Shown one piece after another: positions 675 through 30,343 of a stretch of 64,000 nucleotides of DNA. The notes under the pieces are model-generated. The model worked only from the letters and a program-made list of their open reading frames with translations, did not search any database and was not told the DNA's origin. The DNA is from Pseudodesulfovibrio aespoeensis Aspo-2 (GTDB lineage: Bacteria; Desulfobacterota; Desulfovibrionia; Desulfovibrionales; Desulfovibrionaceae): contig NC_014844.1 of NCBI RefSeq assembly GCF_000176915.2, forward strand, positions 3,348,001 through 3,412,000, read 5' to 3'. The position numbers were made by a program, and so were the translations under genes. Position 1 is the first letter of the stretch. Each line of letters begins with the position of its first letter.

Positions 675-953
675 CTCCGTCCGTGATTCGAAAGAGCCGC
701 AGCTTGCGATTTGTCAGCTTCTAGGCCTTAGGAGGCTTAAGGGCTGGGACGCGCGAAGGTTGCAAGGACTGCGGATGCGGTTGGATGAGGAGAGAAAAGC
801 TGCTGCCGAAAACTCTTATAAACCCCCTGCCGCATGCAATGGCGCGGGCCTGTCCATCCCGAAAGGGTGGGCAGGCCCGCGTCAGTGTATGCGGCTCTTA
901 CCGCCGGAGGCTCGCTTGGGGTCCAGGGCAGCGCCCTGGCCGCCGGAGGCATT
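675..953 (-). repeat. Structured interspersed repeat, copy A
   Basis: This ~280 bp element matches 30046..30343 in the opposite orientation. Read from the end of nrdJ it has, in order: GCCTCCGGCGG (940..950); a small hairpin CCAGGGC/GCCCTGG; a second GCCTCCGGCGG (901..911); an outer stem GCCGCAT/ATGCGGC (889..895 with 829..835); a perfect 10-bp inner stem CGCGGGCCTG/CAGGCCCGCG (872..881 with 843..852); a spacer; AAGCCTCCTAAGGCCTAGAA near 718..739; and a conserved end with ATTCGAAAGAGC near 685..697. It begins 17 bases after the nrdJ stop and may act as that gene's 3' end. The inner stem shares no sequence with copy B, yet both are fully complementary. Confidence 0.85.
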
Positions 954-970
954 AGGTTCGGGTCAAGGGG

Positions 971-3217
971 TTAGCCGCACTTGGTGTAGGCGCAGGCCTT
1001 GCAGATATGGCAGCCTTCCTCAAAGACGAGCGGTTCGCCGCATTCGGGGCAGAGGTCTTTGTTCAGGGCCGGGGAGCCCGCGCCCACGCGGTCGCCCTGG
1101 AGGTAGCGGGATTCGAAGACGTGGGCGATGGCGTCGGGGATGGATTTGACCAGGTGTTTTTTCATGAACTTGGGGTTTTCGCCGCCGATGCCTTTGAGTT
1201 GCCCGACGATTTCGCGGACCTCGACCCCGGAGCGCAGGGCCAGGGAGACGAGGCGACCAATGGCTTCGGCCTTGGCGGTGATGGAGCCGCCTGATTTGCC
1301 GATGGTGGCAAAGACTTCAAAGGGTTTGCCGTCCATCTCGTTGACGGTCAGGAAGAGCATGCCCAGGCCGGTGGGGATCTTCTGGGTAAAGCCGTAGATG
1401 ACATCGGGCCGGGCCTTGACCACGGATTTCCCGGCCTTGGCGTCGTCCATCTTCTTGTCACCATCGCCGGTGCAGAGCACCTGGGAAGTCTTGGAACCGT
1501 CACGGTACACGGTGACTCCCTTGCAGCCGTATTCGTAGGCTTTCCAGTAGATGTCCCAGATGTCTTCCCTGGTGGCCGAGCCGGGCAGGTTGACGGTCTT
1601 GGACACGGCGTTGTCAGTATATTTCTGGAAGGCGGCCTGCATCTTGAGGTGCCAGATGGGCTCGATGTCCATGGCGGTGACATAGACGCGACGCAGGTCA
1701 TGGGGCAGGTGTTCCATCTTCCGGATGGTCCCCACCTTGGCGATCTCCTCCATGAGTTTTGGGGAGTAGGCGTCGGCTTGCTTGAGGGCGGTCTCGAAGA
1801 AGGGGTTGCTCTCCACCAGCTTGTCGTTGTCCATGACATTGCGCACAAAGCTGAGGGCAAAGAGCGGCTCCACGCCCGAGGAGCAGCCGCCGATGATGGA
1901 CAGGGTACCGGTGGGCGCGATGGTGGTGGTGGTGGCGTTGCGGTAGGGGCCGAGGTTGGCCTTGCCGAACACGGACTCTGCATAGGCGGGGAACGGTCCA
2001 CGCTCGGCGGCGAGCTGTTTGGACGCGCTGCGCGCCTCGTCACGCATGAACTTCATGACGCGCTCGGCCAAGTCCACGGCGGTCTGGGAGTTGTAGGCAA
2101 TGTCGAGCTGGAAGAGCAGGTCGGCCCAGCCCATGACGCCCAGGCCGATCTTGCGGTTTTTGCCGACCATCTCGGTGATCTCGGACAGCGGGTAGACCGA
2201 GGCGTCGATGACGTTGTCGAGAAAGCGGACCGAGAGGTGGATGATGCGGCGCAACTCGTCCCAGTTGACCTCGGAATCGTGGCCGTTTTTGCCCTTGGCG
2301 TAGCACTTGCCGAGGTTGATGGAGCCGAGGTTGCAGGCCTCGTAGGGGAGCAGGGGCTGCTCGCCGCAGGGGTTGGTGGACTCGATCTCGCCCAGGGCGG
2401 GGGTGGGGTTGTCGCGGTTGATGCGGTCGAGGAAGACGATGCCCGGATCGCCGGACTCCCACGCCTTCTGGACCAGGAGGTTGAAGACCTCGCGGGCGTT
2501 GAGCTTTTCCACCACCTGGCCGGAGTTGGGGGCCATGAGGTCGAACTCCTCGTTTTTCTCCACAGCGCGCATGAAGGCTTCTGTCAGGCCGATGGAGAGG
2601 TTGAAGTTGTTCAACTCGCCGTCGCGCTCCTTGGCCTTGATGAATTCCATGATGTCGGGATGGTCCACGCGCAGGATGCCCATGTTGGCCCCGCGCCGGG
2701 TGCCGCCCTGCTTGATCTGCTCGGTGGCGCAGTTGAAGATGCGCAGGAACGAGAGCGGGCCGGAAGCCACGCCGCCGGTGGAGCCGACCACCGAGTCCTT
2801 GGCCCGCAGCCGCGAGAAGGAGAAGCCGGTGCCGCCGCCCGACTTGTGGATCATGGCCGCGTGCTTGACCGCGTCAAAGATGTCCTCGATGGAATCGGCC
2901 ACCGGGAGGACGAAGCAGGCCGCCAGCTGGCCCAGGCCGGTGCCCGCGTTCATCAGCGTGGGCGAGTTGGGCAAAAAGGAGTAGGAGGTCATCAGGTCGT
3001 AGAAGTCGCGCGCCAGGGTGGCCGGCTTGCAGCTGGACCCGTCATACTTGGCCTCCTCGGCCGCGATGGCAGACGCCACCCGCCAGAACAGCTCCTTGAC
3101 CGTCTCGTAGACAATGCCCTCGGCGTCCTTTTTCTGGTAGCGCCGGGCCAGGACTATCTTGGCGTTTTCGTTGATGATCGGATCGGGCAGGCTGGCGGGC
3201 ATCTTCGTTTTGGACAT
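971..3217 (-). CDS. nrdJ: Adenosylcobalamin-dependent (class II) ribonucleotide reductase
   Basis: This 748-residue enzyme reduces ribonucleotides to deoxyribonucleotides using a radical generated from adenosylcobalamin, so it needs neither oxygen nor a separate radical subunit. The barrel carries the family motifs STNPCGEQPLL, ACNLGSINLGK and TIAPTGTLSIIGGCSSGVEP. The C-terminus has the zinc-ribbon-like CPECGEPLVFEEGCHICKAC and ends YTKCG, the redox-active tail usual for NrdJ. The ATG at 3217 follows a GAGG element. No NrdA/NrdB or NrdD/NrdG genes are in the window. It is apparently monocistronic, and repeat copy A follows its stop. No cobalamin riboswitch was recognised in the upstream region. 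The length is normal for the family. Confidence 0.96.
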   Translation of the reverse strand: MSKTKMPASLPDPIINENAKIVLARRYQKKDAEGIVYETVKELFWRVASAIAAEEAKYDGSSCKPATLARDFYDLMTSYSFLPNSPTLMNAGTGLGQLAACFVLPVADSIEDIFDAVKHAAMIHKSGGGTGFSFSRLRAKDSVVGSTGGVASGPLSFLRIFNCATEQIKQGGTRRGANMGILRVDHPDIMEFIKAKERDGELNNFNLSIGLTEAFMRAVEKNEEFDLMAPNSGQVVEKLNAREVFNLLVQKAWESGDPGIVFLDRINRDNPTPALGEIESTNPCGEQPLLPYEACNLGSINLGKCYAKGKNGHDSEVNWDELRRIIHLSVRFLDNVIDASVYPLSEITEMVGKNRKIGLGVMGWADLLFQLDIAYNSQTAVDLAERVMKFMRDEARSASKQLAAERGPFPAYAESVFGKANLGPYRNATTTTIAPTGTLSIIGGCSSGVEPLFALSFVRNVMDNDKLVESNPFFETALKQADAYSPKLMEEIAKVGTIRKMEHLPHDLRRVYVTAMDIEPIWHLKMQAAFQKYTDNAVSKTVNLPGSATREDIWDIYWKAYEYGCKGVTVYRDGSKTSQVLCTGDGDKKMDDAKAGKSVVKARPDVIYGFTQKIPTGLGMLFLTVNEMDGKPFEVFATIGKSGGSITAKAEAIGRLVSLALRSGVEVREIVGQLKGIGGENPKFMKKHLVKSIPDAIAHVFESRYLQGDRVGAGSPALNKDLCPECGEPLVFEEGCHICKACAYTKCG

Positions 3218-3418
3218 GGACGGACCTCGTCTGAAAAGCTGAAATGTTTAACTTTTATATGAAAAGCCTGAAAAAAAGGCGGCACAATTAGAGATTGTCT
3301 AGACTACAGAAGGAACGACTAAAAGACCAGTTGAAAGTGCGGGTGGAGGGCAAAAAGGCGGCCAGCCCGCGCCGTTCCTGGGCTGGCGGGCGCGGCCAAG
3401 CTAGGAATCACTCTTAAA
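3218..3418. other. Upstream region of nrdJ
   Basis: AT-rich leader with no gene. It contains an inverted repeat ACAAT-N5-ATTGT around 3285..3299 and a hairpin GCCAGCCC/GGGCTGGC around 3360..3388. The ACAAT repeat has odd spacing and does not fit an NrdR box well. The promoter of nrdJ is expected here, but no clear -35/-10 pair was found. Confidence 0.4.
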
Positions 3419-3499
3419 TCAGCGGGGCAGCCGGACGGTCATGGTGGTGCCAGCCAGATGGGCTAATGAGGGGCCTTCATCCGAAAAAGCCGTCTGCGA
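3419..3499 (-). pseudogene. Remnant of a histidine kinase C-terminus
   Basis: On the minus strand this stretch reads ...AFSDEGPSLAHLAGTTMTVRLPR and then a stop. GTTMTVRLP nearly matches the GTTMTLRLP end of the intact kinase that terminates at 4344. About 26 bases are identical to that gene's end apart from one mismatch. An in-frame stop lies just upstream at 3500, so only ~27 codons survive. The simplest reading is the tail of a second, mostly deleted kinase gene once in tandem with the intact one. Confidence 0.55.
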
Positions 3500-3638
3500 T
3501 CATAAAGTTGACACTGCCTCCGAACAATCCAACGGATTAATAAATCTGTGGCACTCGAATGCCATTTGACACTCACGGCTTGCAATAGCGGCGTTCTTGT
3601 ATTGAAGAAAATGCGCCCCTATAACGGCTACCTATAAT
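3500..3638. other. AT-rich non-coding stretch after the membrane-protein gene
   Basis: No gene, clear terminator or promoter was seen. The composition matches the low-GC gene at 3639..4331 and not the GC-rich surroundings, so this stretch probably belongs to the same foreign segment. Confidence 0.35.
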
Positions 3639-4331
3639 TTATATCTGGTCAATCATTTTCTGTATAATATCTTCTGTCATTTTCCCATCTACTAGGCTCC
3701 ACGACGCCAAAATAGTATACAGAAATGCTGAGAGTTTTTTTACGTGATCATAATGGCAGTCAGCATAATTTATTGCTTTGAAAACATTTTCTTGCAATGT
3801 AACAAACAGCGAGTGTGAGCCTTCCTCTGAAAAATCTATGTTATTAAGAACATACTCGATATCCTTGTACAGCAACTTAAGATCTATGTGGATATCGCGG
3901 ATGTACCTGCCGTTTTCATCTAATCCATTTAAAGCGTCATACCATCTTTGAATATTTTCACCGCTGAAGTACTCTTTAAATTGGTTGTGATCACATAGCT
4001 CGTTCACTAAATTAGAGTCTGTTGAATGACTATCTGCTGCATAGAGCAAGTTGCAGATCGTGTTTTCTTTAAATGACTTATACCGCTGGCTGATATTTTC
4101 CCTTATGATTTTTCTTTTTTTAACTTCTGGCAAATATACAAGTATATACCACAAAAAAATTGAAACTACATACCCACAAGACAGGTTGAACACGATTGAG
4201 TTTCCATTGTTCAATGAATAGAACAATGGTTCTACCCAGGTGCCCTGTAGAAAAGGTAGAATTGGGTCATCACTTCCAATAAATATGCCTAGAATTGAAA
4301 TTGGAAGAGAGAATAGGATTAGCTTTTTCAT
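3639..4331 (-). CDS. Hypothetical membrane protein, low GC
   Basis: A 230-residue protein of no recognised family. Residues ~3-20 and ~45-68 are hydrophobic and likely span the membrane. A basic KKRK segment follows, and the rest (~75-230) is a mainly helical soluble domain with several Cys and His residues. The gene is strikingly AT-rich, with many A/T-ending codons, unlike all its neighbours, which suggests recent transfer. It starts 12 bases after the stop of the upstream kinase, with an AGGA element before the ATG, so the kinase promoter could transcribe it. It lies between the intact kinase and a kinase tail remnant. Its function is unknown. Confidence 0.7.
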   Translation of the reverse strand: MKKLILFSLPISILGIFIGSDDPILPFLQGTWVEPLFYSLNNGNSIVFNLSCGYVVSIFLWYILVYLPEVKKRKIIRENISQRYKSFKENTICNLLYAADSHSTDSNLVNELCDHNQFKEYFSGENIQRWYDALNGLDENGRYIRDIHIDLKLLYKDIEYVLNNIDFSEEGSHSLFVTLQENVFKAINYADCHYDHVKKLSAFLYTILASWSLVDGKMTEDIIQKMIDQI

Positions 4332-4343
4332 GAAGATCTTATC

Positions 4344-6728
4344 CTAGTGTACAGGCAGCCGGAGGGTCATGGTGGTGCCTTGGCTCTCGGAGGTGGTGAA
4401 GCTGATGGAGCCGCCCAGGGTGGTGGCGATGAGCTTGGCCGTGTAGGTGCCGAGCCCGGTGCCCTGGCGCTTGCCCGCGGTGACGTATTTTTCGAAGAAG
4501 GTGCTGCGGATGGCCTCGGGGATGGCTCCCGCGTTGTGCACGGTAATGACGTGCTCGTCAGCGGCGCGCATGTTCAAGGTCACGGTGGAGCCTTGGGGCG
4601 AGGCCTCGACCGCGTTCTTGATCAGGTTGGAGAGGAGTGCGTAGCAGAGCAGCTCCTCGGAGCGGACCATGAAGACGTTGTCCGGCCCGGCTGGTTCGCC
4701 GGAAAGGTTCACGGCCATGGATACGCTTGATGCGCGCAGCACGGGCCGCAGGTCGTCGAGCACAGATTCGGCCACGGCCAGCAGGTCCACAGGCACCGGG
4801 TAGAGGGTGTAGGTGCCTGCCTCCATCTTGTAGAGGGCGCGGGACATGTCGATGATGTTGAGCATCCTCCGGCTGGCCTGCTTGACGCTTTCGAGCAGTT
4901 CGCGCTGGTCGCTGGTCAGGTTGTCGGCCCGGTCAAAGAGGGTGAAGAGGGTCTGCACGGCCAGGGTGGGCGAGCGCAGGTCGTGGCGCACCAGCCGCTC
5001 CACATCCTCACGCAGGGTCTCGACCCGCTTGCGCTCCGAGATGTCGAAGACAAAGGCGATGGCCACCTCGGTTCCCTTGAAGAGCAGGTGATAGGCCGAG
5101 ACCTCCACGGCGAGGCTGGTCTCGTCCTTGCCGCGCACCACGGACTCAAGGGTGACCACCTGATCCTCCTTGAGCCTGGCCCACAGGTCGGGCCAGGTTT
5201 CCCTGGTCACGGCAGAGGTCACGTCGGCCACCACCATGCGCCGCAGCTCGCTGCGGGTGTAGCCGAGCATCCTGGCTCCGGTCAGGTTGGCGTAGACGAT
5301 GCGCCCGGAGGGCCTTACCCGAAACACGCCCATGGCCGCATTGTCCACGGCGAACTGGGTCAGCCGCAGCTCTTCCTCGGCGTGCAGCCGGTTGGTGATG
5401 TCCGTGCCGTAGGAGATGGTGGCCAGCTCCTCATCGTCGCCGGTTACGGAGTTGCGCCACAGGATGTGCCGCGTCTCCCCGCTCTTGGTCAGAATGGGGC
5501 TTTCAAAAGTGTCGGCCACGCCGCGCGGCCCCTCGTTGACCAGCCGCGAGAACTCGTCCCAGACAAAGGGAAACCGCTCCTTGGGCACCACCAGCTCGAA
5601 CCAGTTGCGCCCCAGGATCTCGTCGCGGGCATAGCCGGTGACGGTCTCACCCGCCCGGTTGAAGAGCCGCACATGGCCCGCGTAGTCCAGGCCGACGATG
5701 ATGATGTCTGCGGATTCGATGATCCGCTGGGTGGCCTCGTGGGCGCGCCGGTACTCGGCCTCGGCCAGCTTGCGCTGCGCGATCTCCCTGGTCAGGCGGC
5801 GGTTCCACAGGAAAAACAGCGACAGCAGCAGCATCGCGCCCGCCAACACCAGCCCCACCATGCGCCAGACCTGCGGGCGCCCGACCCACTGGCTGTCATG
5901 GAGCACGGTCCAGTAGTCGCGGATGCCGGTGCGCTCCTCCTTGGTGATGGAGGCCAGGGCGCGGTTGACCAGGGTCAGCAGCACGGGCCAATCCTTGCGC
6001 ACGCCGATGGACAGGCGCGAGGAATACTCGGTGATGGCCGCGATGCGGATGTTGGAAATGCCCCGCTCCCTGGCGAGATAGGCGATGGCGGCCTCGGGCG
6101 CCACAAGGGCCGAGGCCCGGCCCGAGACCAGGGCGCGCAGCCCCTCCTCGGAGGAGGCGACAGGCATCAGCTGGATGGCTGGATGGTCCCTGGGAATGCG
6201 CATGGCCGGAACGTGTCCGGCAGCCACGGCCACCACCTTGCCCGACAAGTCCTTGAGCCCGGAGATGAACGGATAGTCGGCCCGAGTGGCGACGACGATG
6301 GGCAGGAGCAGGTACGGCTCGGACACGAGCATGTCGCTCTCGTGCTCCGGCGCGCCCGGCAGCGCGCCCACCATGTCCACCTCGCCCGCCTTGGCCAGCT
6401 CCCACAAGGCCGGGAAGCTCGACGCACGCACCCGTGTGGGCGTGAGCCCCAGCTTGCGTATGACGATATCCACATAGGCCGGGGACATGCCCTGGATGGA
6501 CCCGTCCGACCCCCGGAACACGACAGGCGGAGAGCCGAGCCAGACGCCCAGGCGCAGGTCCTTGTGGGCATCGAGCCAGGCCTGCTCCGCCTCGGTGACG
6601 TAGAAGGATCCGACCCGGTTCACCGCGCGGCGGTCCTGCCCGCCAGCGGGCAGGCTCCACGCCAGCGCGGCCAGCAGGGCCAGGACCAGGGCCCACGGCA
6701 GGGCCAGACCAAGGCGGCGGTTCGACAT
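4344..6728 (-). CDS. PAS-domain sensor histidine kinase with periplasmic solute-binding domain
   Basis: A 794-residue membrane kinase. It starts with a signal-type segment (LALPWALVLALLAALAW). A family-3 solute-binding domain follows (~50-290), including LRLGVWLGSPPVVF and DMVGALPGAPE, and is likely the periplasmic ligand sensor. Then come a transmembrane helix (VGLVLAGAMLLLSLFFLW), two PAS domains (~330-580) and a HisKA region with RHDLRSP carrying the phospho-acceptor His. The HATPase has an N box (NLIKNAVEAS) and a G box (GTGLGTYTAKLIA). No receiver domain is present and no response regulator gene is adjacent, so its partner is unknown. A longer frame reaches 6929, but the signal peptide begins at the ATG at 6728, so that start was chosen. 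Confidence 0.9.
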   Translation of the reverse strand: MSNRRLGLALPWALVLALLAALAWSLPAGGQDRRAVNRVGSFYVTEAEQAWLDAHKDLRLGVWLGSPPVVFRGSDGSIQGMSPAYVDIVIRKLGLTPTRVRASSFPALWELAKAGEVDMVGALPGAPEHESDMLVSEPYLLLPIVVATRADYPFISGLKDLSGKVVAVAAGHVPAMRIPRDHPAIQLMPVASSEEGLRALVSGRASALVAPEAAIAYLARERGISNIRIAAITEYSSRLSIGVRKDWPVLLTLVNRALASITKEERTGIRDYWTVLHDSQWVGRPQVWRMVGLVLAGAMLLLSLFFLWNRRLTREIAQRKLAEAEYRRAHEATQRIIESADIIIVGLDYAGHVRLFNRAGETVTGYARDEILGRNWFELVVPKERFPFVWDEFSRLVNEGPRGVADTFESPILTKSGETRHILWRNSVTGDDEELATISYGTDITNRLHAEEELRLTQFAVDNAAMGVFRVRPSGRIVYANLTGARMLGYTRSELRRMVVADVTSAVTRETWPDLWARLKEDQVVTLESVVRGKDETSLAVEVSAYHLLFKGTEVAIAFVFDISERKRVETLREDVERLVRHDLRSPTLAVQTLFTLFDRADNLTSDQRELLESVKQASRRMLNIIDMSRALYKMEAGTYTLYPVPVDLLAVAESVLDDLRPVLRASSVSMAVNLSGEPAGPDNVFMVRSEELLCYALLSNLIKNAVEASPQGSTVTLNMRAADEHVITVHNAGAIPEAIRSTFFEKYVTAGKRQGTGLGTYTAKLIATTLGGSISFTTSESQGTTMTLRLPVH

Positions 6729-6925
6729 GCGCAATCCCGGATCAGCGACTTCAGGGCATGACTCGACAACAGGGCCAACGACGCTCGGCAAACCAGTCGA
6801 AATTACACCATATCGCATTTTTCGACCCACGACAAACAGGAGTCTGCCAGCCAGCGAAAAAATAAACAGGATGCGCGCAGTGTGTGCAACCCCTGCTGCA
6901 GGCGGATGGATGCTGCCCGGGTCTA

Positions 6926-7657
6926 TCACCTCCTGAAGCAGAGGAACTCGTATCCGTACACGCCGGGATGCGCCCGGTAGAGGCTGATCTCGCGCCGACT
7001 GCCGTCGATGACGGCCCGACCGTCCGGGTCATCGCCATAAAGCGTTTCCACCTTGTCCAGATGTCGCTCCAGATCATCGTAAAAGGCATCCCAGCACTCG
7101 CGGTCCACAGAAAAGTGGCCGACGGATTCATATCCCAGCGCCTGTCCGGCGCTAACGATGTCCGCGGGCGTGCGCATGGCAGGGTACTCTTCGGCCCAGT
7201 AGGCACGCACCTCGTCAGGGACGGAAGTGGCAAGCCAGACCGCGTCGCTGAACACCAGAAAACCGCCGGGCCGCAGGAACCGTTTCCATTCCTCCATGGC
7301 CTGGTCCACACCCATGATATAGGCCGCGCCCTCGCACCAGATCAGGTCAAAGCTCTCCGGCTCGAAATCCAGGGCAGCCATGTCGGCCTTCGCGGTCGCG
7401 ATCCGGTGGGCCAGACCAGCGGCGGCAGCCCGTCCGGCCAGGGTGTCCAGAAACGGCTGATGCACGTCCACGGCCACCAGGCTGCCGCCGGTCAGCCCGG
7501 CCAGGGCCAGGGTCGCCCCGCCTGAACCGCACCCAAGTTCCAGCACCCGCGGGCTTTCCGGCAACCCGGCGCACAGGGCCAGGGCGCGCTGGGTCATGGC
7601 CCGGCTGCCCGGCCCCTCTCTGTCCAGTCCTTCATATATCTTGAAAAGTATCTCCAT
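6926..7657 (-). CDS. Class I SAM-dependent methyltransferase
   Basis: A 243-residue protein with a Rossmann methyltransferase fold. Motif I is VLELGCGSGGATLALA (~38-53), the acidic end of strand 2 is in SLVAVDVH, and a motif-IV-like stretch is FDLIWCEGAAYIMG, followed by FLRPGGFLVFSD. The sequence is closest in style to small-molecule (ubiE/Methyltransf_25-type) enzymes, but the substrate cannot be deduced. The ATG at 7657 is preceded by GGAGG at good spacing. An upstream in-frame extension to 7795 looks non-coding. The gene stands alone, with its stop ~200 bases from the kinase start. Confidence 0.85.
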   Translation of the reverse strand: MEILFKIYEGLDREGPGSRAMTQRALALCAGLPESPRVLELGCGSGGATLALAGLTGGSLVAVDVHQPFLDTLAGRAAAAGLAHRIATAKADMAALDFEPESFDLIWCEGAAYIMGVDQAMEEWKRFLRPGGFLVFSDAVWLATSVPDEVRAYWAEEYPAMRTPADIVSAGQALGYESVGHFSVDRECWDAFYDDLERHLDKVETLYGDDPDGRAVIDGSRREISLYRAHPGVYGYEFLCFRR

Positions 7658-8050
7658 GAATCCTCCCTGCCCGCTGCTGCGGCTGCATGTACTCCGGGGC
7701 GCGGCTGGCAACCCAACTCCCCCCTTCGCAAAAGAATCGGCCCTGAAGACACACCCCGCCCGTGCGCACCGGACACGGAATGCAGCCTCTCGCATTTCCG
7801 GTCATCAATCCAGTCGTATTCCCGCACCGGCAACGACAACGGTCACGGTTTCCACAGGCAAAACAGGCGTTCCTTTCCCCTTGGCGACTCAGGGCAGACA
7901 CCGGCGCAGCCCCATGAACCCGCCGACAGGGCAACACTCCGGACAACTTTTTTCCCCTGGTGGGGAAAAGCGGATTTACCTCTGTTTTTTTTTGGTCTAT
8001 TGGGGCTTGGGAACTGCCCGTCTTACCCCTTTCAATCAAGAGAGCGTTGC
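7658..8050. other. Divergent intergenic region
   Basis: This 393-bp region separates the minus-strand methyltransferase from the plus-strand aminotransferase and must hold both promoters. It contains a perfect 8-bp inverted repeat, TTTTCCCC-TGGT-GGGGAAAA, at 7950..7969, and a T-rich run near 7985..7994. No riboswitch family was recognised on either strand. Confidence 0.4.
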
Positions 8051-9223
8051 ATGCGTATTTCCGACCGTCTGGAGAGGATCAAGCCATCGGCCACCCTGGC
8101 TGTGAACGCCAAGGCGCAGGCGCTGAAGGCCCAGGGCCGGGAGATCATCAGCCTGGCCGTGGGCCAGCCCGATTTCGGCACCCCGACGCACGTCTGCGAG
8201 GCGGCCAAGGCGGCCCTGGACGAGGGTTTCACCCGCTACACTCCGGTGCCGGGCATTCCCGAGCTGCGCGAGGCCGTGGCCGCCTACTATGGCCGGTTCT
8301 ACGGAGCCAGGGCCACGGGCGACAACACCATCATCAGCAACGGCGGCAAGCAGGTGCTCTACAACCTGTTCATGGCCCTGCTCAATCCGGGTGACGAAGT
8401 GCTCATCCCGGCCCCCTACTGGGTCAGCTACCCGGCCATGGTCCAGCTGGCGGACGGGGTGTCCGTGTTCGTGCCCACCACCGCGGACCAGAACTTCCTC
8501 GTCACCCTGGACGCCCTGGAGGCGGCGCGCACGGACAAGACCCGGCTGCTCCTCCTCAACTCGCCCTCCAACCCCACGGGCTGCTGCTACACCCAGGTCC
8601 AGCTCGAAGCCATCGCGGCCTGGGCGCGCGAAAAAAAAGTCTTCATCGTCTCCGACGAGGTGTACGACCGGCTGGTCTACGCCCCGGCAGAGCCCGCCTC
8701 CCTGGCCAAGACCTGGGAGGCTTATCCCGAGACCATCGCCATCGTGGGCGCGCTCTCCAAGTCCTTCTGCATGACCGGCTGGCGCGTGGGCTACGCCCTG
8801 GCCCACGAAACGCTGATCAAGGCCCTGTCCAAGATCCAGGGCCAGTCCACCTCCAACATCAACTCCATCGCCCAGAAGGCGGCCCTGACCGCCCTGAACG
8901 GCTCATGGGACATCGTGGACGAGATGAAGCGCGCCTTTGTCCGCCGCCGCGACATCGCCTACGGGATCATCACCGGCTGGGGCGCGCAGTGTCCGAAGCC
9001 GGACGGCGCATTCTACCTCTTCCCGGTGCTCGGCCAATTCTACACCGCCGACGCGCCCGACTCGGCCACCATGTGCGCCAAGCTGCTTGATGAAGCAGGC
9101 GTGGCCCTGGTGCCCGGCTCCGCCTTTGGCGATGACACGTGCATCCGCTTCTCCTACGCCGTGGACGACGATACCCTGCGCACCGCCCTGGAGCGCGTGG
9201 GCACGGTACTGACCGGCAAATAA
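8051..9223 (+). CDS. Class I pyridoxal-phosphate aminotransferase (aspartate aminotransferase type)
   Basis: A 390-residue fold-type I aminotransferase. It has the N-terminal AVGQPDFGTPTHV and the substrate/PLP region NGGKQVLYNLF. NSPSNPTG carries the conserved Asn, SDEVYDRLVY the conserved Asp/Tyr, and SKSFCMTGWRVGYA the PLP-binding Lys. The arginine near the C-terminus (CIRFSYA) binds the substrate carboxylate. The family normally exchanges amino groups between aspartate and 2-oxoglutarate or related acids, though exact specificity cannot be read here. The ATG at 8051 begins the conserved region. The frame is open to 8000, but that part looks non-coding. Confidence 0.92.
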   Translation: MRISDRLERIKPSATLAVNAKAQALKAQGREIISLAVGQPDFGTPTHVCEAAKAALDEGFTRYTPVPGIPELREAVAAYYGRFYGARATGDNTIISNGGKQVLYNLFMALLNPGDEVLIPAPYWVSYPAMVQLADGVSVFVPTTADQNFLVTLDALEAARTDKTRLLLLNSPSNPTGCCYTQVQLEAIAAWAREKKVFIVSDEVYDRLVYAPAEPASLAKTWEAYPETIAIVGALSKSFCMTGWRVGYALAHETLIKALSKIQGQSTSNINSIAQKAALTALNGSWDIVDEMKRAFVRRRDIAYGIITGWGAQCPKPDGAFYLFPVLGQFYTADAPDSATMCAKLLDEAGVALVPGSAFGDDTCIRFSYAVDDDTLRTALERVGTVLTGK

Positions 9224-14374: not shown

Positions 14375-14376
14375 CG

Positions 14377-14557
14377 AAAGCCCCGGGAGGCCGTGTCGCC
14401 AGTTGGTTTTGAACCTGGCTATTCCAGGTGGGCATGGCTCGCGCGCCTTCAGGCTTCCCGGCTGACCGGGCATGCACACCAGCACGCTGGAGCCTTCGCC
14501 CGTATTACGAGCATTGGCTCAAAAACGCTCCTGGCAATCACTAACGTCCCAGGGTAT
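14377..14557 (-). ncRNA. ssrS: 6S RNA
   Basis: A ~181-nt RNA between zapA and rny, the usual neighbourhood of 6S RNA (next to zapA in many proteobacteria). The end stem forms between CCCTGGGA (about 14547..14554) and TCCCGGGG (about 14381..14388). The 3' half resembles Escherichia coli 6S closely. GGTGTGCATGCCCGGTCAGC then CGGGAAGCCTGAAG aligns with the GGTGAGCATGCTCGGTCCG...GAGAAGCCTTAAA region, and CACCTGGAATAGCCAGGTTC gives the next hairpin. The middle would form the open bubble that mimics a melted promoter and binds the housekeeping RNA polymerase. It starts ~40 bases after the zapA stop and is probably processed from the zapBA transcript or made from a promoter inside zapA. The exact ends are estimated. 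Confidence 0.88.
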
Positions 14558-14598
14558 TTCTCTGCCTGCCTCGGACCCGGTCCGCTCATCGGCCCGGA

Positions 14599-22565: not shown

Positions 22566-22622
22566 AGGCTTTTTGCCTTTTGAAACATCCGCCGCCGACC
22601 CATCGCAGCGGCCTTGCGCTCG

Positions 22623-22991
22623 CTAGCTGGAAATGTCTTCCGACGCCCCTGCGGCACCCGGTTCGAGGCTGCCCATCACGAGCTGCCCCTCAAGCACCGC
22701 ACCCTCCTCGACAACCAACACCGGCGTCCTGATGTTTCCCTGCAGGTTCGCCGTCTTGTGCAGCACCACCTTGTCCCGGGCCTCAACCTCGCCCAGAATC
22801 TTGCCCGAAAGCACGAGCTGGCCGACCTGGATCAGCCCTTCCACCACAGCCTCCTGCCCCACGACAAGCGTGCCGTCCGAGACCACCTCGCCGTGGAAAT
22901 TGCCGTCTATCCGGACAGCCCCTTGAAAGTTCAGCTTTCCCTGATAGTTGGTCCCGGCACCCAGAAAGGCATTGATTTCGTCTCTCGCCAT
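22623..22991 (-). CDS. Bactofilin (polymer-forming cytoskeletal protein)
   Basis: A 122-residue bactofilin. These proteins form a right-handed beta helix that self-assembles into filaments without nucleotide, often at the membrane, and help shape the cell wall. The repeating strand pattern (VRIDGNFHGEVVSDGTLVVG, EAVVEGLIQVGQLVLSGKI, DKVVLHKTANLQGNIRTPVL) is clear. Short disordered ends flank it, with the N-terminal motif NAFLGAGTNYQGKL. It lies between the cell-shape genes (rodA to mreB) and the atp operon on the same strand, which fits a role in wall growth. Confidence 0.9.
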   Translation of the reverse strand: MARDEINAFLGAGTNYQGKLNFQGAVRIDGNFHGEVVSDGTLVVGQEAVVEGLIQVGQLVLSGKILGEVEARDKVVLHKTANLQGNIRTPVLVVEEGAVLEGQLVMGSLEPGAAGASEDISS

Positions 22992-23052
22992 GAAAACGCG
23001 CTCCTCGGAAAAGATCAGTTATGAAACGAGGCATGCGCCACTGCTCAACGCG

Positions 23053-24165
23053 TCAGCTCTGCTTGAACAGAAACCGGCGCATTGACACATTGAGCACAAG
23101 CCCGACGAGACAAAAATTTACCAGCGTGGCGCTGCCCCCGTAGCTGATGAAGGGAAGGGGGATGCCTACAACTGGCATTAGCCCGAGAACCATACCCGTG
23201 TTTATGAGGATTTGCCAGAAGAAATAGAAGTACACGCCCGCCGTCAGGTAGCTGCCGAATAATCCACGCGCGTCGCGCGCTATGTTCACCATCTGGTAGA
23301 GGAACAGACAGAAAAATGTCAGCAGCAGCATGGCTCCGGCAAAGCCCCACTCCTCGCCGAACACGGCCACGGCAAAGTCCGTGTGCCGCTCGGGCAGAAA
23401 CCGCAGCTGCGACTGCGTGCCTTCCATGAACCCCTTGCCCCAGAAGCCGCCCGAGCCAATGGCTATTTCCGACTGAATGATGTGATACCCCGCGCCCAGC
23501 GGGTCGGTGGTGGGATCGAGAAAGGTCATGATCCGCCGCTTTTGGTAGTCGTGCAGGAACAGCCACGCCAGGGGCAGCATTGAGGGGATTGCCACCAGCG
23601 CGGTCTTGAACACGGCAGGCGTCACCCCGTGGTAGAGGATCATCCCGCCCAGGATGAGGAGGATGGAGAGGCCCGTCCCCAGATCGGGCTGGCGGATGAC
23701 CAGCCCGGCCAGCACCAGACCGATGCCGAGCACGTAGCCCAGCCGGACGAATCCCAGAGGTTCGCGCTCCCTGGAGAGGATGCGCGCACCCACGATGAGC
23801 ACCGCGATCTTGGCCAGCTCGCTCGGCTGGAAGTTCATGAAGCCGAGATCAAGCCAGCGGCGCGCGCCGTAAATGGTCTTGCCCACGAAGAACACGGCCA
23901 GCAGCAGGATCACCGTAGCCCAGAACAGGGGCCAGGCTATGGTCTTGAGGTGGCGGTAGTCGAAGAGCATGAACATGACCATGCCGAACATGCCCATGAG
24001 CCCCCACAACAGCTGGCGTTGAAAGTACGGCGCCACGCTCATGCCCTCTTCCAGCCGGTAGCCGCTGGCTGAGTACAGGTTGAGCGCGCCCAGCAGGAAC
24101 AGGATCAGGGCCAGCCCGAGCAGGGGCCAGTTGATGTAGAAGAGCAGCCTGCGATCAATGGGCAC
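23053..24165 (-). CDS. rodA: Peptidoglycan glycosyltransferase RodA
   Basis: A 370-residue SEDS-family polymerase that builds lateral-wall glycan strands with PBP2. About ten membrane helices are visible. Typical SEDS features are YGARRWLDLGFMNFQPSELAK, GLVIRQPDLGTGLSILLI (with the catalytic-loop Asp), the loop before WGKGFMEGTQSQLRFLPERHTDF, and VVGIPLPFISYGGSA near the C-terminus. The start is a GTG at 24165 with GGAGG upstream, and it overlaps the end of mrdA by 11 bases. Confidence 0.96.
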   Translation of the reverse strand: MPIDRRLLFYINWPLLGLALILFLLGALNLYSASGYRLEEGMSVAPYFQRQLLWGLMGMFGMVMFMLFDYRHLKTIAWPLFWATVILLLAVFFVGKTIYGARRWLDLGFMNFQPSELAKIAVLIVGARILSREREPLGFVRLGYVLGIGLVLAGLVIRQPDLGTGLSILLILGGMILYHGVTPAVFKTALVAIPSMLPLAWLFLHDYQKRRIMTFLDPTTDPLGAGYHIIQSEIAIGSGGFWGKGFMEGTQSQLRFLPERHTDFAVAVFGEEWGFAGAMLLLTFFCLFLYQMVNIARDARGLFGSYLTAGVYFYFFWQILINTGMVLGLMPVVGIPLPFISYGGSATLVNFCLVGLVLNVSMRRFLFKQS

Positions 24166-26029
24166 GCGAGCCTCCGGTGGCGTTGACCGAGAGCAGTCGG
24201 GCCGCTCTGGATTTGGCCTTCTGGGCTTCCGGCTTGGGCGTCACCTTGCCGAAGAAAATATAGTCGATCATGGCCTTGACCACCGGGCCGGCCCCGGAGC
24301 TGCCGTGCAGCCCATGCTCGATCATGGCCACGATGGCGTACCGCCTGCCGTCCTTTTCCGCCGTGGCCGCCATCCAGGCGTGATCGCGGAAACGGTAGGG
24401 GATGTCGTCGTCCTTGAGCTCCTTGAGTTTGTCCGTCAGCCGCACCACCTGGGCCGTGCCGGTCTTGCCGCCCACGACCACGTCCTTGGTGCGCAGCCTG
24501 CGGCAGGTGCCCCGGTCGCCCTCCACGGTGTTCACCAGGGCGCGGTAGAGCAGGGCGAGCTGGCCAGGGTCCAGAGGCACCTGGCCCTGGACCACCGGCT
24601 TTTCATCCTTGAGCAGGCTGGGCTTGAGCAGCTTGCCGCCATTCATGGCCGCGGCAAAGAACCTCGCCACCTGAAGAGGCGTGACCAGGGTGTACCCCTG
24701 GCCAATGGCCATGTTCAGATTGTCGCCGCCCTGCCACCCCTCTCCGAAACGCTTGCGCTTCCAGTCGCGGGTCGGGATGATGCCCGCCTTTTCGTGAGGC
24801 AGGTCAATGCCCGTCTCCTGACCAAAGCCGCAGGCAAAAGCGAACTCGCTCATGCGGTCCACGGTCAGCTTCTTGCCCTGCTTGTAGAAATACACGTCGC
24901 AGGACTCGACCAGGGCGCGCTCAAGGTTGACGTTGCCGTGCCCGCCCTTGCGCCAGCAGCGGAAAACATGGCTTCCGAGCTTGGTCTGGCCGGTGCAGTT
25001 GACGACCTCCTTGGGGTCGAGCAGACCATAGTGCAACCCGGCTCCGGCCACGACATGTTTGAACACCGAGCCCGGCGGGTACACGGACTGGATGACCCGG
25101 TTCTGCATCGGATGCAGGGGATCGTCCCTGAGCTTGGCCCACTGCTCCGAGGTCAGACCCGAAGAAAAATCATTGGAGTTGTATGAGGGTGCCGTGGCCA
25201 GCGCCCAGAGCTGCCCGGTGTCGGCATCCATGACCACCACGCCGCCCGCCTCCTCGGCAAGCCAGTCCATGGCCAGCTCCTGCAGTCCGAGATCAATGGA
25301 CAGGGAAATCTCATGCCCGGCGCGCGGGTGCTTGAGCACGCGCTCCTTGAGCCGCCGACCGTTGACATCCACCTCGAACTGGACCCTCCCCTTGGCCCCG
25401 CGCATGCGGTCCTCAAACACCAGCTCAATGCCCTGCCTGCCTACATAGTCGCCCAGGGCCAGCTCGGGCCGCCGCTCCATCTCCTCCTCGCTGGCCTCGG
25501 CCACATAGCCGAGGACGTGGGCCAGAAGCTCGCCGTGGCGATACTGCCGGCGCGGCCTGATCTGTATGGCCAGGCCGGGCCAGCGCAGCCTGTTGGCGTC
25601 GATCAGGGCCACCTGGTCAAAGGTCAGGTCCGGGACAATGATGAGCGGCTCAAACGTCTTCACCCGCTTCTGGTTCTTTGTGTAGAGCGCCTTGTATTCC
25701 TCGAAACTGGCACCGGTCCACTCGGCCACCTGACGCAGAGTGGCGTCGATATCCTCGCAGTCCTCGCGCACCAGCCCCAGGGCGTAGGCGGGCTCGTTGA
25801 CGGCCAGCAGGTCTCCGTAGCGGTCGCGGATCAGCCCGCGCGGGGAGAAGATCGACTCCTGGCGCATCTGGTTCTCCCTGGCCTTGCGGGCGAACACCTC
25901 GCCACGATGGATCTGGAGATACCACAGGCGCACGGCAAAGAGGCAGAACACCGCCAGAATGAGCACCTGGAGCAGGAGCAGACCCGCGCGCGGCGGCTGC
26001 AGGTTGGTGTTGTCATAGAGATTTGGCAT
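24155..26029 (-). CDS. mrdA: Penicillin-binding protein 2
   Basis: A 624-residue class B transpeptidase, partner of RodA. It has one N-terminal membrane anchor (LLLLQVLILAVFCLFAVRLW), a dimerisation/pedestal domain (~50-220) and a transpeptidase domain. The active-site SxxK is in PPGSVFKH, SxN is SCDVYF and KTG is VGGKTGTAQV. The length is typical. Its start overlaps the end of mreD by 17 bases and its end overlaps the start of rodA, which suggests translational coupling. Confidence 0.96.
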   Translation of the reverse strand: MPNLYDNTNLQPPRAGLLLLQVLILAVFCLFAVRLWYLQIHRGEVFARKARENQMRQESIFSPRGLIRDRYGDLLAVNEPAYALGLVREDCEDIDATLRQVAEWTGASFEEYKALYTKNQKRVKTFEPLIIVPDLTFDQVALIDANRLRWPGLAIQIRPRRQYRHGELLAHVLGYVAEASEEEMERRPELALGDYVGRQGIELVFEDRMRGAKGRVQFEVDVNGRRLKERVLKHPRAGHEISLSIDLGLQELAMDWLAEEAGGVVVMDADTGQLWALATAPSYNSNDFSSGLTSEQWAKLRDDPLHPMQNRVIQSVYPPGSVFKHVVAGAGLHYGLLDPKEVVNCTGQTKLGSHVFRCWRKGGHGNVNLERALVESCDVYFYKQGKKLTVDRMSEFAFACGFGQETGIDLPHEKAGIIPTRDWKRKRFGEGWQGGDNLNMAIGQGYTLVTPLQVARFFAAAMNGGKLLKPSLLKDEKPVVQGQVPLDPGQLALLYRALVNTVEGDRGTCRRLRTKDVVVGGKTGTAQVVRLTDKLKELKDDDIPYRFRDHAWMAATAEKDGRRYAIVAMIEHGLHGSSGAGPVVKAMIDYIFFGKVTPKPEAQKAKSRAARLLSVNATGGSRAH

Positions 26030-26498
26030 CCTGCCTCAGCATTCTGGGAAAGAGTATGTCCGCCGCCATCCAGACGAGAGGAAAGGCCACTGCCTGCAAC
26101 ACGCCCTCCACGGCCAGCCGGCGCGTGTCCACGGTCAGATCGCCCAGGGAGGCCAGCCCATATGTGAGCAGCGGGTGCAGGGTGCCGAGGGCCGCGCCCA
26201 GCAGGCACATGAAGGCGAAGGAGCGCGCCTCGAAAAGCCAGCGGCCCATCAGATAGAGGGCGGCGAGCGTCCCGTACCATGCCAGTCCGTAGCCAAAGGG
26301 CAGGTTGCCCGTGCCCTCAAGGAGCAGCATCCAGACCAAGGCCAGCCACAACGTCCGATGCCCGGCCTGCACCTGCAGGGCAAGCACGATGCCGGGCGCG
26401 AGAAAATCCACTCCGGGAACGGTCCGCTGGGCCCACACGCCCGCCACGGTAAAGACGCCCCACCACAACAGGGCGACACTGTTACTGCGCGGCGGCAC
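26013..26498 (-). CDS. mreD: Rod shape-determining protein MreD
   Basis: A ~161-residue membrane protein with about five hydrophobic segments (LLWWGVFTVAGVWA, GIVLALQVQAG, LWLALVWMLLLEG, LAALYLMGRWL, FMCLLGAALGTL). The identity follows from size, topology and its place between mreC and mrdA, since MreD is poorly conserved. A GTG at 26498 preceded by AGGAGG is the best start and overlaps the mreC stop. The in-frame ATG at 26540 lies inside mreC without a good ribosome-binding site. Confidence 0.85.
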   Translation of the reverse strand: MPPRSNSVALLWWGVFTVAGVWAQRTVPGVDFLAPGIVLALQVQAGHRTLWLALVWMLLLEGTGNLPFGYGLAWYGTLAALYLMGRWLFEARSFAFMCLLGAALGTLHPLLTYGLASLGDLTVDTRRLAVEGVLQAVAFPLVWMAADILFPRMLRQDAKSL

Positions 26499-27360
26499 CG
26501 GGTGCAGCCTCCTGTTCGGCGGGCCCCTGCCCGCCCTCATCGGCCAGCTCGCGCCGGAGCAGCAGGACTTCCTCCAGCCCGGCCACGTCCGCCAGCGGCT
26601 CGGCCTCGACCGTGAGGAACAGGGAGATGTCCGACCGGCGCACCCGGACCACGCGGGCCACGGGCAACCCCTTGGGATAGATGCCCGACAGCCCGGACGA
26701 GAGCAGCAGTTCGCCCGGGTCGATGACCGCGTTGAGATTCATGTAGTGGACCACCAGCGGTTCGCCATAGCCCTGGCCCGAAAGCATGCCCGCAGAGCGA
26801 TTGTGCTCGCCAATCACCGCGACCCGACTGTTGGCGTCGGTCAGCAGCAATACGGTCGACGAAACGGCCCCGGAGCGGAGAATGCGGCCCACCACGCCGT
26901 CCAGGCTGACCACCGGCATGTCCTCTTCCACGCCAGAAGTGGTGCCCCGGTCCACAGCCAGGGTGGCCAGCGCCCCGGCCGGACCCATGCGATGGGCGAT
27001 GACGCGCGCACCGCTGAAATTCCACTGCGCCGGAGGCGTAAAGCCCAGGAGCTGTTCCAGCCGGTCGGCAGAGCGGGCCTCGGAGCCGAGAATCATGTTC
27101 TGCCGAATGAGACGCGCATTCCGCTGGACCAGTTCATCGTTCTGCCGCTTGAGATCGACAAGATAGATGTACCGCTCCCAGAACTCGACAGCCTTTTCCC
27201 CCGCCCACTGTCCGGGGCGGAGAATCAGGCTGGAGAGGTCAAGGCCGGTATGGCTTGAAAGGGCGTCCAAATGCCCGGTGCGCAGGTTCCACGTATACAA
27301 GCTCAGGTACACGAAGAGCCCCGCCACGATCACGACGGCGATCTTCTTGGGCTTATTCAC
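26482..27360 (-). CDS. mreC: Cell shape protein MreC
   Basis: A 292-residue periplasmic scaffold protein of the elongasome. The N-terminal membrane anchor (IAVVIVAGLFVYLSLYTW) is followed by a coiled coil (~60-100, VDLKRQNDELVQRNARLIRQ). Two beta-barrel domains carry RVIAHRMGPAGALATLAVDR, VVGRILRSGAVSSTVLLLTD and SSGLSGIYPKGLPVARVV. It starts 12 bases after mreB and ends overlapping mreD. Confidence 0.95.
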   Translation of the reverse strand: MNKPKKIAVVIVAGLFVYLSLYTWNLRTGHLDALSSHTGLDLSSLILRPGQWAGEKAVEFWERYIYLVDLKRQNDELVQRNARLIRQNMILGSEARSADRLEQLLGFTPPAQWNFSGARVIAHRMGPAGALATLAVDRGTTSGVEEDMPVVSLDGVVGRILRSGAVSSTVLLLTDANSRVAVIGEHNRSAGMLSGQGYGEPLVVHYMNLNAVIDPGELLLSSGLSGIYPKGLPVARVVRVRRSDISLFLTVEAEPLADVAGLEEVLLLRRELADEGGQGPAEQEAAPGAAAQ

Positions 27361-27372
27361 GCTGCTGGCTAC

Positions 27373-28443
<1,071 letters not shown>

Positions 28444-28593
28444 TCATGAAGTATATGCTCGGATGACACTTTCCAATGACCGGGAAGTGCGCTAGCGTCT
28501 AAATTCAGCTGAGGATTCGTACCAAATGTAACCAGCCCAGGCAATACGCTGAACCGGCTTTGAACCTTTTTTCTCAACTTTTTCTAAAAAAGC

Positions 28594-29577
28594 ATGCACA
28601 GAATCTACTCGCTTTCAGCCCACTTGCGCCAGCGTTATTTGGGGCGGGTTCAAAAAATCCCCCTGGACGCCGGATTCTCCTGCCCCAACAGGGACGGAAC
28701 CATCTCGACCAGCGGCTGTCTCTTCTGCAACCCAGCCGGGTCAGGCTCGGGCATGAAAGACCGGGGGCTCGACATCCCCGCCCAGTGGCGGTTCTGGCGC
28801 GACATCCACCGCAAGAAGCACCGCCTTGAGCGCTTCACCGCCTACCTGCAATCTTTTTCCAACACTTACGGTCCCATTGACAAGCTCGCCCGCACCCTTG
28901 ACCAGCTTGCCGGACTGCCCGGCCTCACGGCCTTAAGCATCGGCACCCGGCCCGACTGCCTCGACCCGGACAAGCTCGACCTTCTCGCCGCCCGGCGCGA
29001 TGCCCTGGGCCTGACCGACATCACCCTTGAAATGGGCCTGCAATCGGCCAGCGACACCACCCTCAAGCACATCAACCGGGGCCACGACGCCCGCGCCTTT
29101 GCCGATGCCGCTTGCGCCGCACACCAGCGGGGCATCACCGTCGTCGCCCACGTCATCGCCGGGCTGCCCACCCCTGACGGGCGCGAGGACCAGTCCGACC
29201 TCGGTTCCACCATTGATTTCATCAACGACCTGCCTGTGAGGGGCATCAAATTCCACAACCTCTACGTGGCCCGCCGCACCCCCCTCGCCCAGCTGCACGC
29301 ACAGGGAGGCTACACGCCGCTGACCCTGGACGAGTACCTCGACCATCTCAGCCATGCCCTCATGCGCCTCTCGCCCACAACCGTTGTCCACCGACTCAAC
29401 GGCAACCCCTCCTCGGGCGAACTCGTCGCACCCGACTGGGCCGCAAACATGCGCGCCCTGCACAATACTGTGCGCAATCACCTCGACGCCCGTGACATCT
29501 GGCAAGGCAAGCTCAATACGGCACCAACCGGGCCGCCCGCCTGGTTTTCCCCGGAATACAAAGGAGACACGCCATGA
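28594..29577 (+). CDS. TIGR01212-family (YhcC-like) radical SAM protein
   Basis: A 327-residue radical SAM protein related to E. coli YhcC. The iron-sulfur cluster cysteines lie in CPNRDGTISTSGCLFC (~24-39), a CX12-CX2-C spacing typical of the YhcC/Elp3-like subgroup and not the common CX3-CX2-C. Further motifs are SIGTRPDCLD, DITLEMGLQSASDTTLKHIN and VVAHVIAGLPTPDG. The substrate is unknown. The stop overlaps the next gene's start (ATGA), so the two are co-translated. It is transcribed divergently from mreB. Confidence 0.9.
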   Translation: MHRIYSLSAHLRQRYLGRVQKIPLDAGFSCPNRDGTISTSGCLFCNPAGSGSGMKDRGLDIPAQWRFWRDIHRKKHRLERFTAYLQSFSNTYGPIDKLARTLDQLAGLPGLTALSIGTRPDCLDPDKLDLLAARRDALGLTDITLEMGLQSASDTTLKHINRGHDARAFADAACAAHQRGITVVAHVIAGLPTPDGREDQSDLGSTIDFINDLPVRGIKFHNLYVARRTPLAQLHAQGGYTPLTLDEYLDHLSHALMRLSPTTVVHRLNGNPSSGELVAPDWAANMRALHNTVRNHLDARDIWQGKLNTAPTGPPAWFSPEYKGDTP

Positions 29578-30041
29578 AAGAATGCATCGTCGCAGACCCC
29601 ATCGCCCTGTCCCTGACTTGGGAAAACGGACAACTCGTCCGGCTCAACATCCACTGGGCCACGGCTGTGGCCGAATCGCCCGTCCTCTCCGATGAGGCGA
29701 AACTGCTCAAAAAAGCGCTCATCCGCTACATTTCCAAGCTCACCCCCGAGTGGCCCAACCTGCCCCTGGACTTCTCCAGGCTGACCCAGTTCCACCAGGC
29801 CGTCCTCCAAGCCCTGTCCCGCGTTCCCCAAGGCAAGATGTGCACCTACGGCGAACTCGCCTCCGCAGTCGGCAACCCCAACGCCGCACGCGCCATCGGA
29901 CGGGCCATGGCCACCAACCCCTTCCCGCTCATCTACCCCTGCCACCGCGTCATCGGCGCGTCCGGCAAACTCACCGGCTTCTCCGGGGAAGGCGGCATCA
30001 AGCTCAAGGAATACCTGCTCAAACACGAAGGCGCACTCTGA
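29574..30041 (+). CDS. ogt: Methylated-DNA-protein cysteine methyltransferase
   Basis: A 155-residue DNA repair protein that removes alkyl groups from O6-alkylguanine by transfer to its own Cys. The acceptor motif is IYPCHRVIG, preceded by the helix-turn-helix region GKMCTYGELASAVGNPNAARAIGRAM with the arginine finger. The N-terminal domain is short. It overlaps the radical SAM gene by four bases. Repeat copy B begins five bases after its stop. Confidence 0.93.
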   Translation: MKECIVADPIALSLTWENGQLVRLNIHWATAVAESPVLSDEAKLLKKALIRYISKLTPEWPNLPLDFSRLTQFHQAVLQALSRVPQGKMCTYGELASAVGNPNAARAIGRAMATNPFPLIYPCHRVIGASGKLTGFSGEGGIKLKEYLLKHEGAL

Positions 30042-30045
30042 GAGG

Positions 30046-30343
30046 AATGCCTCCGGCGGCCAGGGCTCTGCCCTGGACCCGCCAGGGGCAAGCCCCTGGA
30101 CCCCAGGCGAGCCTCCGGCGGTAGGAGCCGCGCGCAATGGAAACGGCCCGCCCACCCTTCGGGATGGACGAGCCGTTTCCATTGCACGCGGCAAATTGAT
30201 TACAAGAATCTTCGGCAGCCGCTCCCTTCTGCCCAACCGCGACCGCAACCCTTTCTTCCGTCGAACGCCCCGGCCATTAAGCCTCCTAAGGCCTAGAAGC
30301 TGAGCGATCGAGCGGAACAGCTCTTTCGAACCACGGACGGAGG
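30046..30343 (+). repeat. Structured interspersed repeat, copy B
   Basis: This ~298 bp element matches copy A (675..953, opposite strand). In order it has GCCTCCGGCGG (30049..30059); hairpins CCAGGGC/GCCCTGG and CCAGGGGC/GCCCCTGG; a second GCCTCCGGCGG (30111..30121); outer stem GCCGCG/CGCGGC (30127..30132 with 30187..30192); a perfect 14-bp inner stem GCAATGGAAACGGC/GCCGTTTCCATTGC (30134..30147 with 30172..30185); a spacer; AAGCCTCCTAAGGCCTAGAA (about 30280..30299); and a conserved end (30320..30343). The loop shares CCCACCCTTCGGGATGGA with copy A (one extra T there). It lies between convergent ogt and rex, in the ogt direction. Confidence 0.85.

Follow-up and report, generated by a model that had tools for sequence, protein, structure and literature searches.

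Why do two unrelated genes end in the same long, structured sequence? The question is raised by a window of 64,000 nucleotides from Pseudodesulfovibrio aespoeensis Aspo-2 (NC_014844.1, positions 3,348,001 to 3,412,000, inside one contig of 3,629,109 bases), where one copy of a repeat stands behind the gene nrdJ and a second one behind ogt. We found that both copies fall in a larger family whose hairpins are each opened by a box, GCCTYCGGCGRCC. The evidence leans towards the two copies being members of a dispersed, non-autonomous family of palindromic DNA elements, laid out like REPINs (hairpin-forming doublets of repetitive extragenic palindromic, or REP, sequences) or bacterial interspersed mosaic elements (BIMEs), with stems that would be maintained at the level of DNA and with spread in trans. 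An ordinary terminator or an RNA switch is unlikely.

Inspection of the sequence at 675..953 (minus) and 30046..30343 (plus) confirmed the coordinates of the original prediction and its distances from the stop codons, 17 nt for nrdJ and 4 nt for ogt. The common boxes that it had named are also real, as the similarity of the two copies is well above chance: the main piece of the BLAST alignment has E = 2.1e-46, and the colinear matching pieces measure 115 nt (78%), 84 nt (71%), 66 nt (82%) and 35 nt (97%). The parts of the copies and the adjoining genes are as follows.

940..953, minus: leader A of copy 1, AAT plus the box GCCTCCGGCGG, 17 nt past the nrdJ stop
923..939, minus: short hairpin CCAGGGCGCTGCCCTGG after this box (from the sequence and the pairwise alignment)
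828..911, minus: module B of copy 1 (model match, E = 4.0e-18), a second box (901-911) and a 24-pair stem with a bulged CCACCC/GGGATGG core
584..740, minus: tail module C of copy 1, a long imperfect hairpin (limits by eye)
30046..30059, plus: AAT plus the box GCCTCCGGCGG of copy 2, 4 nt past the ogt stop
30060..30110, plus: short hairpin CCAGGGCTCTGCCCTGG of copy 2 and a second, GC-rich mini-hairpin (from the sequence)
30111..30193, plus: module B of copy 2 (model match, E = 5.4e-18), a second box (30111-30121) and a 24-pair stem with a bulged core
30277..30347, plus: tail module C of copy 2, shorter than that of copy 1 (limits by eye)
971..3217, minus: nrdJ, B12-dependent ribonucleotide reductase, adjoining copy 1 (NCBIfam/Pfam)
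29574..30041, plus: ogt, methylated-DNA-cysteine S-methyltransferase, adjoining copy 2 (NCBIfam/Pfam)

The repeat unit is a composite, and its 3' third, module C, is also found alone. Module B, the second box with its hairpin, occurs nine times in the Aspo-2 genome, each time with E of 1.2e-16 or better; the search gave 32 rows, the other 23 being weaker or opposite-strand matches. Judged by eye, seven of the nine copies run into a tail D and two, those of the window, into tail C. The covariation proposed from the two window copies was borne out over all nine, in which 95.6% of 270 cells are paired. Changes on both sides were seen at 10 of the 30 pairs (24 outer pairs and 6 more), and the covariation score was 0.318, compared with 0.126 for shuffled and 0.017-0.083 for slid alignments; the number of further pair types showed no excess (16 vs 15.7 shuffled).

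The stems had been described as unrelated in sequence and perfectly paired, and neither description survives. The arms are homologous and equally long, with 14 of 24 positions identical between copies 1 and 2 (alignment count), and they seemed unrelated because different registers were compared; pairs other than Watson-Crick ones make up 2 of 30 in copy 2 and 3 of 30 in copy 1. The loop, predicted to be constant, does keep its sequence, but in one genomic copy, L003 (G and L numbers are our labels for genomes and loci), the core stands reverse-complemented between the outer arms. The predicted placement at 3' ends holds for seven of the nine composites, whose first box begins 6-26 nt past a stop, but not for L007 and L018, where the first box is turned towards the start of a divergent gene, according to our own gene caller.

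The family is much wider than module B. The box GCCTYCGGCGRCCAG has 34 exact matches in the Aspo-2 genome and is present in 14 of 17 genomes of the genus that were searched; a backward control pattern gave 0 or 1 match per strand. At least one match was found in 191 of 297 sampled genomes of the order, with counts from 0 to 103 (the maximum, in G222) in 237 genomes of the family of the window and no more than 4 in 60 genomes outside it. The covariance model of module B, at a cut-off of E<=0.01, matched in 8 of 60 genomes: Aspo-2 itself, 7 of the 35 further genomes from its genus and none of the 24 from other genera. A hairpin above threshold follows the box at 76 of 116 box sites, and its arms differ between subfamilies yet pair; the remaining 40 sites, which include short CCAGGGC..GCCCTGG hairpins, show no palindrome above threshold. 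The set of hairpins was raised from 76 to 81 by adding 20 stretches, and over these 81 the median arm is 19.

The boxes are arranged as inverted, outward-facing pairs. Adjacent boxes less than 700 bp apart were +- in 23 cases, -- in 2, -+ in 2 and ++ in none, so outward pairs make up 23 of 27 (the second boxes of module B lie outside the pattern used for this count). These 23 pairs span 86-619 bp, with a median of 358, and with the exact box all 7 of 7 pairs in G032 face outward. In G014 the element measures ~360 bp and has the box inverted at both ends; this holds for five elements with 0-3 changes, and one of the five carries the full 16-bp AATGCCTTCGGCGACC at both ends. At one place of their 31-bp stem these five related elements read GG, CG, GA, TG and CG, each matched on the opposite arm, and the adjoining right-hand flank is nearly constant. 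The complete form of the element is a pair of box-and-hairpin units that face outward, in many cases with a stop codon on one side and the next terminator on the other.

A long stem that covaries is commonly taken to prove a function of the RNA. Selection for pairing in a transcript should let G.U pairs stand but not A.C pairs, which gives a test of the strand on which pairing matters. For this, native terminators from the same stretches served as the control (179 hairpins with 2,152 pairs, the 20 added stretches left out) and showed 60 G.U, 15 A.C and 28 other mismatches. The box hairpins, read on the box strand (81 hairpins, 1,701 pairs), showed 15 G.U, 29 A.C and 8 others, and the two sets differ in their G.U and A.C counts with p = 1.2e-6 (Fisher), related copies in this count not being independent. 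The nine module-B copies contain 5 G.U and 10 A.C. Of the 31 pairs of an orthologous module B compared between G015 and G003, 22 are the same; both members differ in 5, giving Watson-Crick pairs in 4 and an A.C pair in 1; and the change is one-sided in 4, always to A.C and never to G.U. The sense strand thus shows no tolerance of wobble pairs. These counts weigh against selection on the transcript of the upstream gene and point to a cause at the level of DNA.

Such a cause has been described. Template switching between the arms of an inverted repeat homogenises the arms and inverts spacers (PMC8604942), and multibase compensatory changes in stems have been suggested to arise through it (PMC8794818). 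Covariation need not, on these accounts, mean selection on RNA (PMC8794818, PMC8604942). The original prediction had taken different, complementary stems as a sign of selection on structure; the compensated stems are real, but their covariation can also be explained by template switching. As compensated stems and an inverted core are what template switching predicts, we infer that the stems may stay complementary mainly through replication or repair that copies one arm from the other, a process that would occasionally invert the spacer, as in L003. An inverted spacer suspected in G001 was dropped, the two copies agreeing when both are read from the box (by eye). Comparing G.U with A.C, with native terminators as control, makes the maintenance of palindromes by template switching testable in bacteria.

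The placement of the boxes was examined in 83 boxes from the fetched stretches, with genes from our own codon-usage caller. The box side faced the 3' end of a gene in 56 cases and a 5' end in 25, some of which are probably errors of the gene caller; one box lay inside a call and one had no neighbour. In 20 of the 25 boxes facing a 5' end, the far neighbour presented its 3' end. Among the 56 boxes facing a 3' end, 43 begin 0-29 nt past the stop, 10 begin at 40-69 nt and 3 further away. A T-run stands directly before the box in 10 of 10 cases at 40-69 nt, as the end of a native terminator, and in 5 of 43 at 0-29 nt. In G032, several complete elements come within 2-16 nt of one stop, and their other end lies past a T-run, 55-63 nt from the stop on the far side. 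From these spacings we conclude that the element is often found in the interval from a stop codon to a terminator that convergent genes share.

The proposal that the repeat is a stabiliser or terminator of 3' ends was not supported in the form given: neither copy has a terminator-like site, as 0 combinations of a hairpin with a T-tract (intrinsic terminators) were found at window positions 500-1000 and 30020-30440. The native T-run that precedes 10 of the 56 boxes and the absence of a G.U excess over A.C in the stems also oppose it. A scan of the window against Rfam at the gathering score gave 6S RNA as its sole match, and the repeats belong to no Rfam family; copy 2 had four sub-threshold matches to miRNA and HCV hairpins, the best scoring 40.5 bits where the cut-off is 97. 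Translation starting at the ATG of AATGCC was considered and dropped, as this motif is mirrored at the ends of the G014 elements. An integron attC-like site was another idea that was set aside.

The orthologous gene ends were then compared. Past nrdJ, four relatives (G015, G003, G030 and G019) lack a box up to 450 nt from the stop, and G029 lacks one in the 261 nt that could be seen. By eye, G015, G030, G019 and G029 have an ordinary terminator there and G003 has a hairpin without a T-tract; pieces like tail C or D lie further downstream in G015 and G019. The ogt end was assessable in 22 relatives, with G015 left out since its locus is cut. Five of these (G019, G014, G009, G022 and G006, all of the genus, with the loci L115, L117, L123, L124 and L125) carry a box in the same orientation 3-13 nt past the stop. 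G003 has an oppositely oriented box at 124 nt, the box of G002 is degenerate, and the 15 other relatives have none within 450 nt. A box within 20 nt of the stop thus occurs at 5 of 22 ogt ends and at 9 of 601 control ends (p = 5.6e-5), and any box within 450 nt at 6 of 22 and 39 of 601 (p = 0.003), both p-values being too small because the relatives are not independent; the control ends came from samples spaced evenly over three genomes. The place behind ogt has either stayed occupied through a long divergence, with the sequence of the element turning over, or been entered repeatedly.

Several known systems resemble the family. REPINs of Pseudomonas, in the sections of PMC3116915 that define them, are likewise repeated extragenic palindromic units in inverted doublets with predicted single-stranded DNA hairpins. 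Unlike them, each unit here is itself a hairpin, the outward pairs span 86-619 bp compared with the 71 and 110 bp given there as common distances between REPs, and the Aspo-2 genome contains no REP-associated tyrosine transposase (RAYT): a search with Y1_Tnp (PF01797) at E<=0.001 gave 0 matches in this genome and was positive in 5 of 14 control genomes. A RAYT as the mobiliser was rejected on this ground. The GTAG/CGTC REP super-families, as portrayed in part of PMC3733652, share with our family a constant tag beside a stem that varies complementarily between subfamilies, and they too often lie downstream of coding regions. Their stems, however, measure 5-13 bp, compared with the 24-pair outer stem of module B, and G-T pairs are frequent in them and rare here; by eye, GTAG stands at the foot of the stem in 1 of the 9 module-B copies. 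Uptake-signal terminators of Neisseria and Pasteurellaceae are similar in their short constant box and inverted pairs behind genes. In the relevant portion of PMC1852404, uptake signals generally number at least 1,000 copies, compared with 34 exact boxes here, and our paired boxes, unlike those described there, lie mostly hundreds of bp apart without forming a terminator stem.

The inverted doublets that characterise REPINs were thus found in the family (23 of 27), with no second outward box seen at the window copies. Terminal inverted repeats, as in miniature inverted-repeat transposable elements (MITEs), were found in the five G014 elements and not demonstrated for the window copies. The MITE-like mobile unit of the original prediction comes close to the picture of the wider family; a target-site duplication, as in MITEs, was not seen. 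Since the defining features were looked for and found wanting, we do not assign the repeat to REPINs or MITEs. It would be a REPIN-like element whose genome has no RAYT, present in dozens of copies in many genomes of the family. Spread might proceed by insertion through a recombinase acting in trans, other than a RAYT of the present genome, and the placement at gene ends would then mark where insertions were targeted, tolerated or retained, some ends, such as that of ogt, being reoccupied. No paper in the open-licence literature that contains the box string concerns such a repeat, judged by title, and papers on Desulfovibrio with the terms intergenic repeat, REP, MITE or terminator offered nothing on it (mostly by title).

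The family also offers a crowding of copies near the origin in some genomes. The origin of Aspo-2 lies near the contig ends, as indicated by the GC skew of the fetched stretches and by one of two DnaA-family matches, a gene at 3.607 Mb. The origin half holds 28 of 32 loci, and a terminus-side gap of 1.24 Mb (1.02-2.27 Mb) has no exact boxes (p = 1e-4). In G014 all 19 of 19 loci lie in the origin half, with a circular mean of 2.62 Mb compared with an origin near 2.60 Mb, and in G001 the circular mean is 0.56 Mb (p = 0.00045) and the turn of the skew falls at about 0.44-0.6 Mb. No significant bias was seen in G032, where the origin half holds 30 of the 53 loci (p = 0.32), nor in G002, G009 and G005 (p = 0.11-0.22). 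The box reads toward the origin in 22 of 30 cases in Aspo-2 (p = 0.016, two-sided), in 12 of 18 in G014, which is not significant, and in 19 of 46 in G032, where there is no such tendency. Convergent gene pairs in Aspo-2 number 17 terminus-side vs 19 per 200 kb; in G014 they are rarer terminus-side (16 in 11 samples vs 23 in 9). It is possible, though we hold this only tentatively, that the constant box and folded hairpin, placed between stop codon and terminator, form a DNA site recognised by its structure and belonging to a recombination system without a RAYT, or to a chromosome-organising one, of this bacterial family; such a site could account for the retention or re-acquisition behind the same genes in distant species, for template-switched arms and for origin-centred copies in several genomes.

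Other explanations have to be set against a DNA family. The hairpin might act in the upstream transcript, as a terminator or as a barrier to 3'-exonucleases, with its compensatory changes selected. The strong covariation of module B and the start of 7 of 9 composites 6-26 nt past a stop would suit such a role, as would the occupied ogt end in 5 of 22 relatives and the fact that the window copies have no terminator-like site where four relatives have one past nrdJ (by eye). We nevertheless consider it unlikely, as the elements have no T-tract, their G.U and A.C counts (15 and 29) stand against 60 and 15 in native terminators, a native T-run precedes 10 of 56 boxes, the boxes of L007 and L018 face a gene start and the core of L003 is inverted. 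Still less likely is an antisense or bidirectional role, in which the hairpins would serve transcripts of the convergent gene on the far side. The excess of A.C on the box strand (29 vs 15, p = 0.049 vs 1:1) amounts to an excess of G.U on the opposite strand, several sites do lie between convergent genes, and some members in G014 and G004 resemble bidirectional terminators with A and T tracts; this excess, however, is limited to one genome and weaker than the 4:1 of native terminators, and complete elements with two outward units would affect both strands alike. A chromosome-organising site, in which a protein would bind the box with its cruciform-capable hairpin and copies would be kept mainly near the origin, seems to us marginally less probable again. 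Its binding protein is only postulated, G032, G002, G009 and G005 lack a significant origin bias and convergent pairs in G014 are rarer on the terminus side; the recurrent occupation of ogt and the crowding in Aspo-2, G014 and G001, the first of which has convergent pairs about as often terminus-side, are the observations that it would explain.

The reading as a dispersed DNA family maintained by template switching has its own difficulties. Four of the five G014 stems contain a one-sided mismatch, one each, and at the window copies no second outward-facing box is in view. The A.C excess comes mostly from the Aspo-2 genome (10 G.U and 26 A.C, the others together having 5 and 3), includes the non-independent copies mentioned above, and would have the same sign if pairing were selected on opposite-strand RNA. 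No target-site duplication was found by eye at the 23 outward pairs, in 14 nt of flank on each side; with no such duplication and no transposase identified, mobility is read from the distribution of the copies. Random insertion does not sit well with the repeated occupation of the ogt end, which speaks for retention by descent or for targeting, with the G014 element 13 nt past the nrdJ stop, or with the crowding near the origin (p<0.001 in 3 of 7 genomes, p>0.1 in 4 of 7).

Some further observations concern the family outside Aspo-2. Box hairpins at L229, L235 and L240 in G032 share a comparable additional insert in the loop, several tens of nt long. Several boxes in G071 lie within about 210 bp of a low contig end, where a repeat at which assemblies break would be expected. 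In IMG/VR, 28 contigs bear the box; seven of them (L248, L249, L256, L258, L259, L262 and L272) look like the family by eye, and the others do not resemble its element. One G032 element had no match in plasmids and phages, and copy 1 had none in plasmids.

Two further neighbours of the copies lie in the window.

30421..31053, minus: rex, convergent, on the far side of copy 2 (domain/family match)
21..425, plus: C-terminal part of an IS110-family transposase, its remainder lying left of the window (NCBIfam/Pfam)

Tail C of copy 1 is interrupted near 584 by this IS110-family element, which takes up window positions 1-583 (junction by eye). REP sequences are likewise targets of insertion sequences (PMC1525189), the target here being another repeat. 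By eye, the edge of the same IS110-family element lies within the same repeat at L009, L012 and L015, and the repeat appears uninterrupted at that site in L008, L010, L016 and L017. A separate palindrome, GGTTACTTTCTTTTG..CAAAAGAAAGTAACC, recurs next to tail C in L008, L010, L016, L017 and others. Elsewhere in the window, at 14376-14558 on the minus strand, lies the 6S RNA matched by Rfam.

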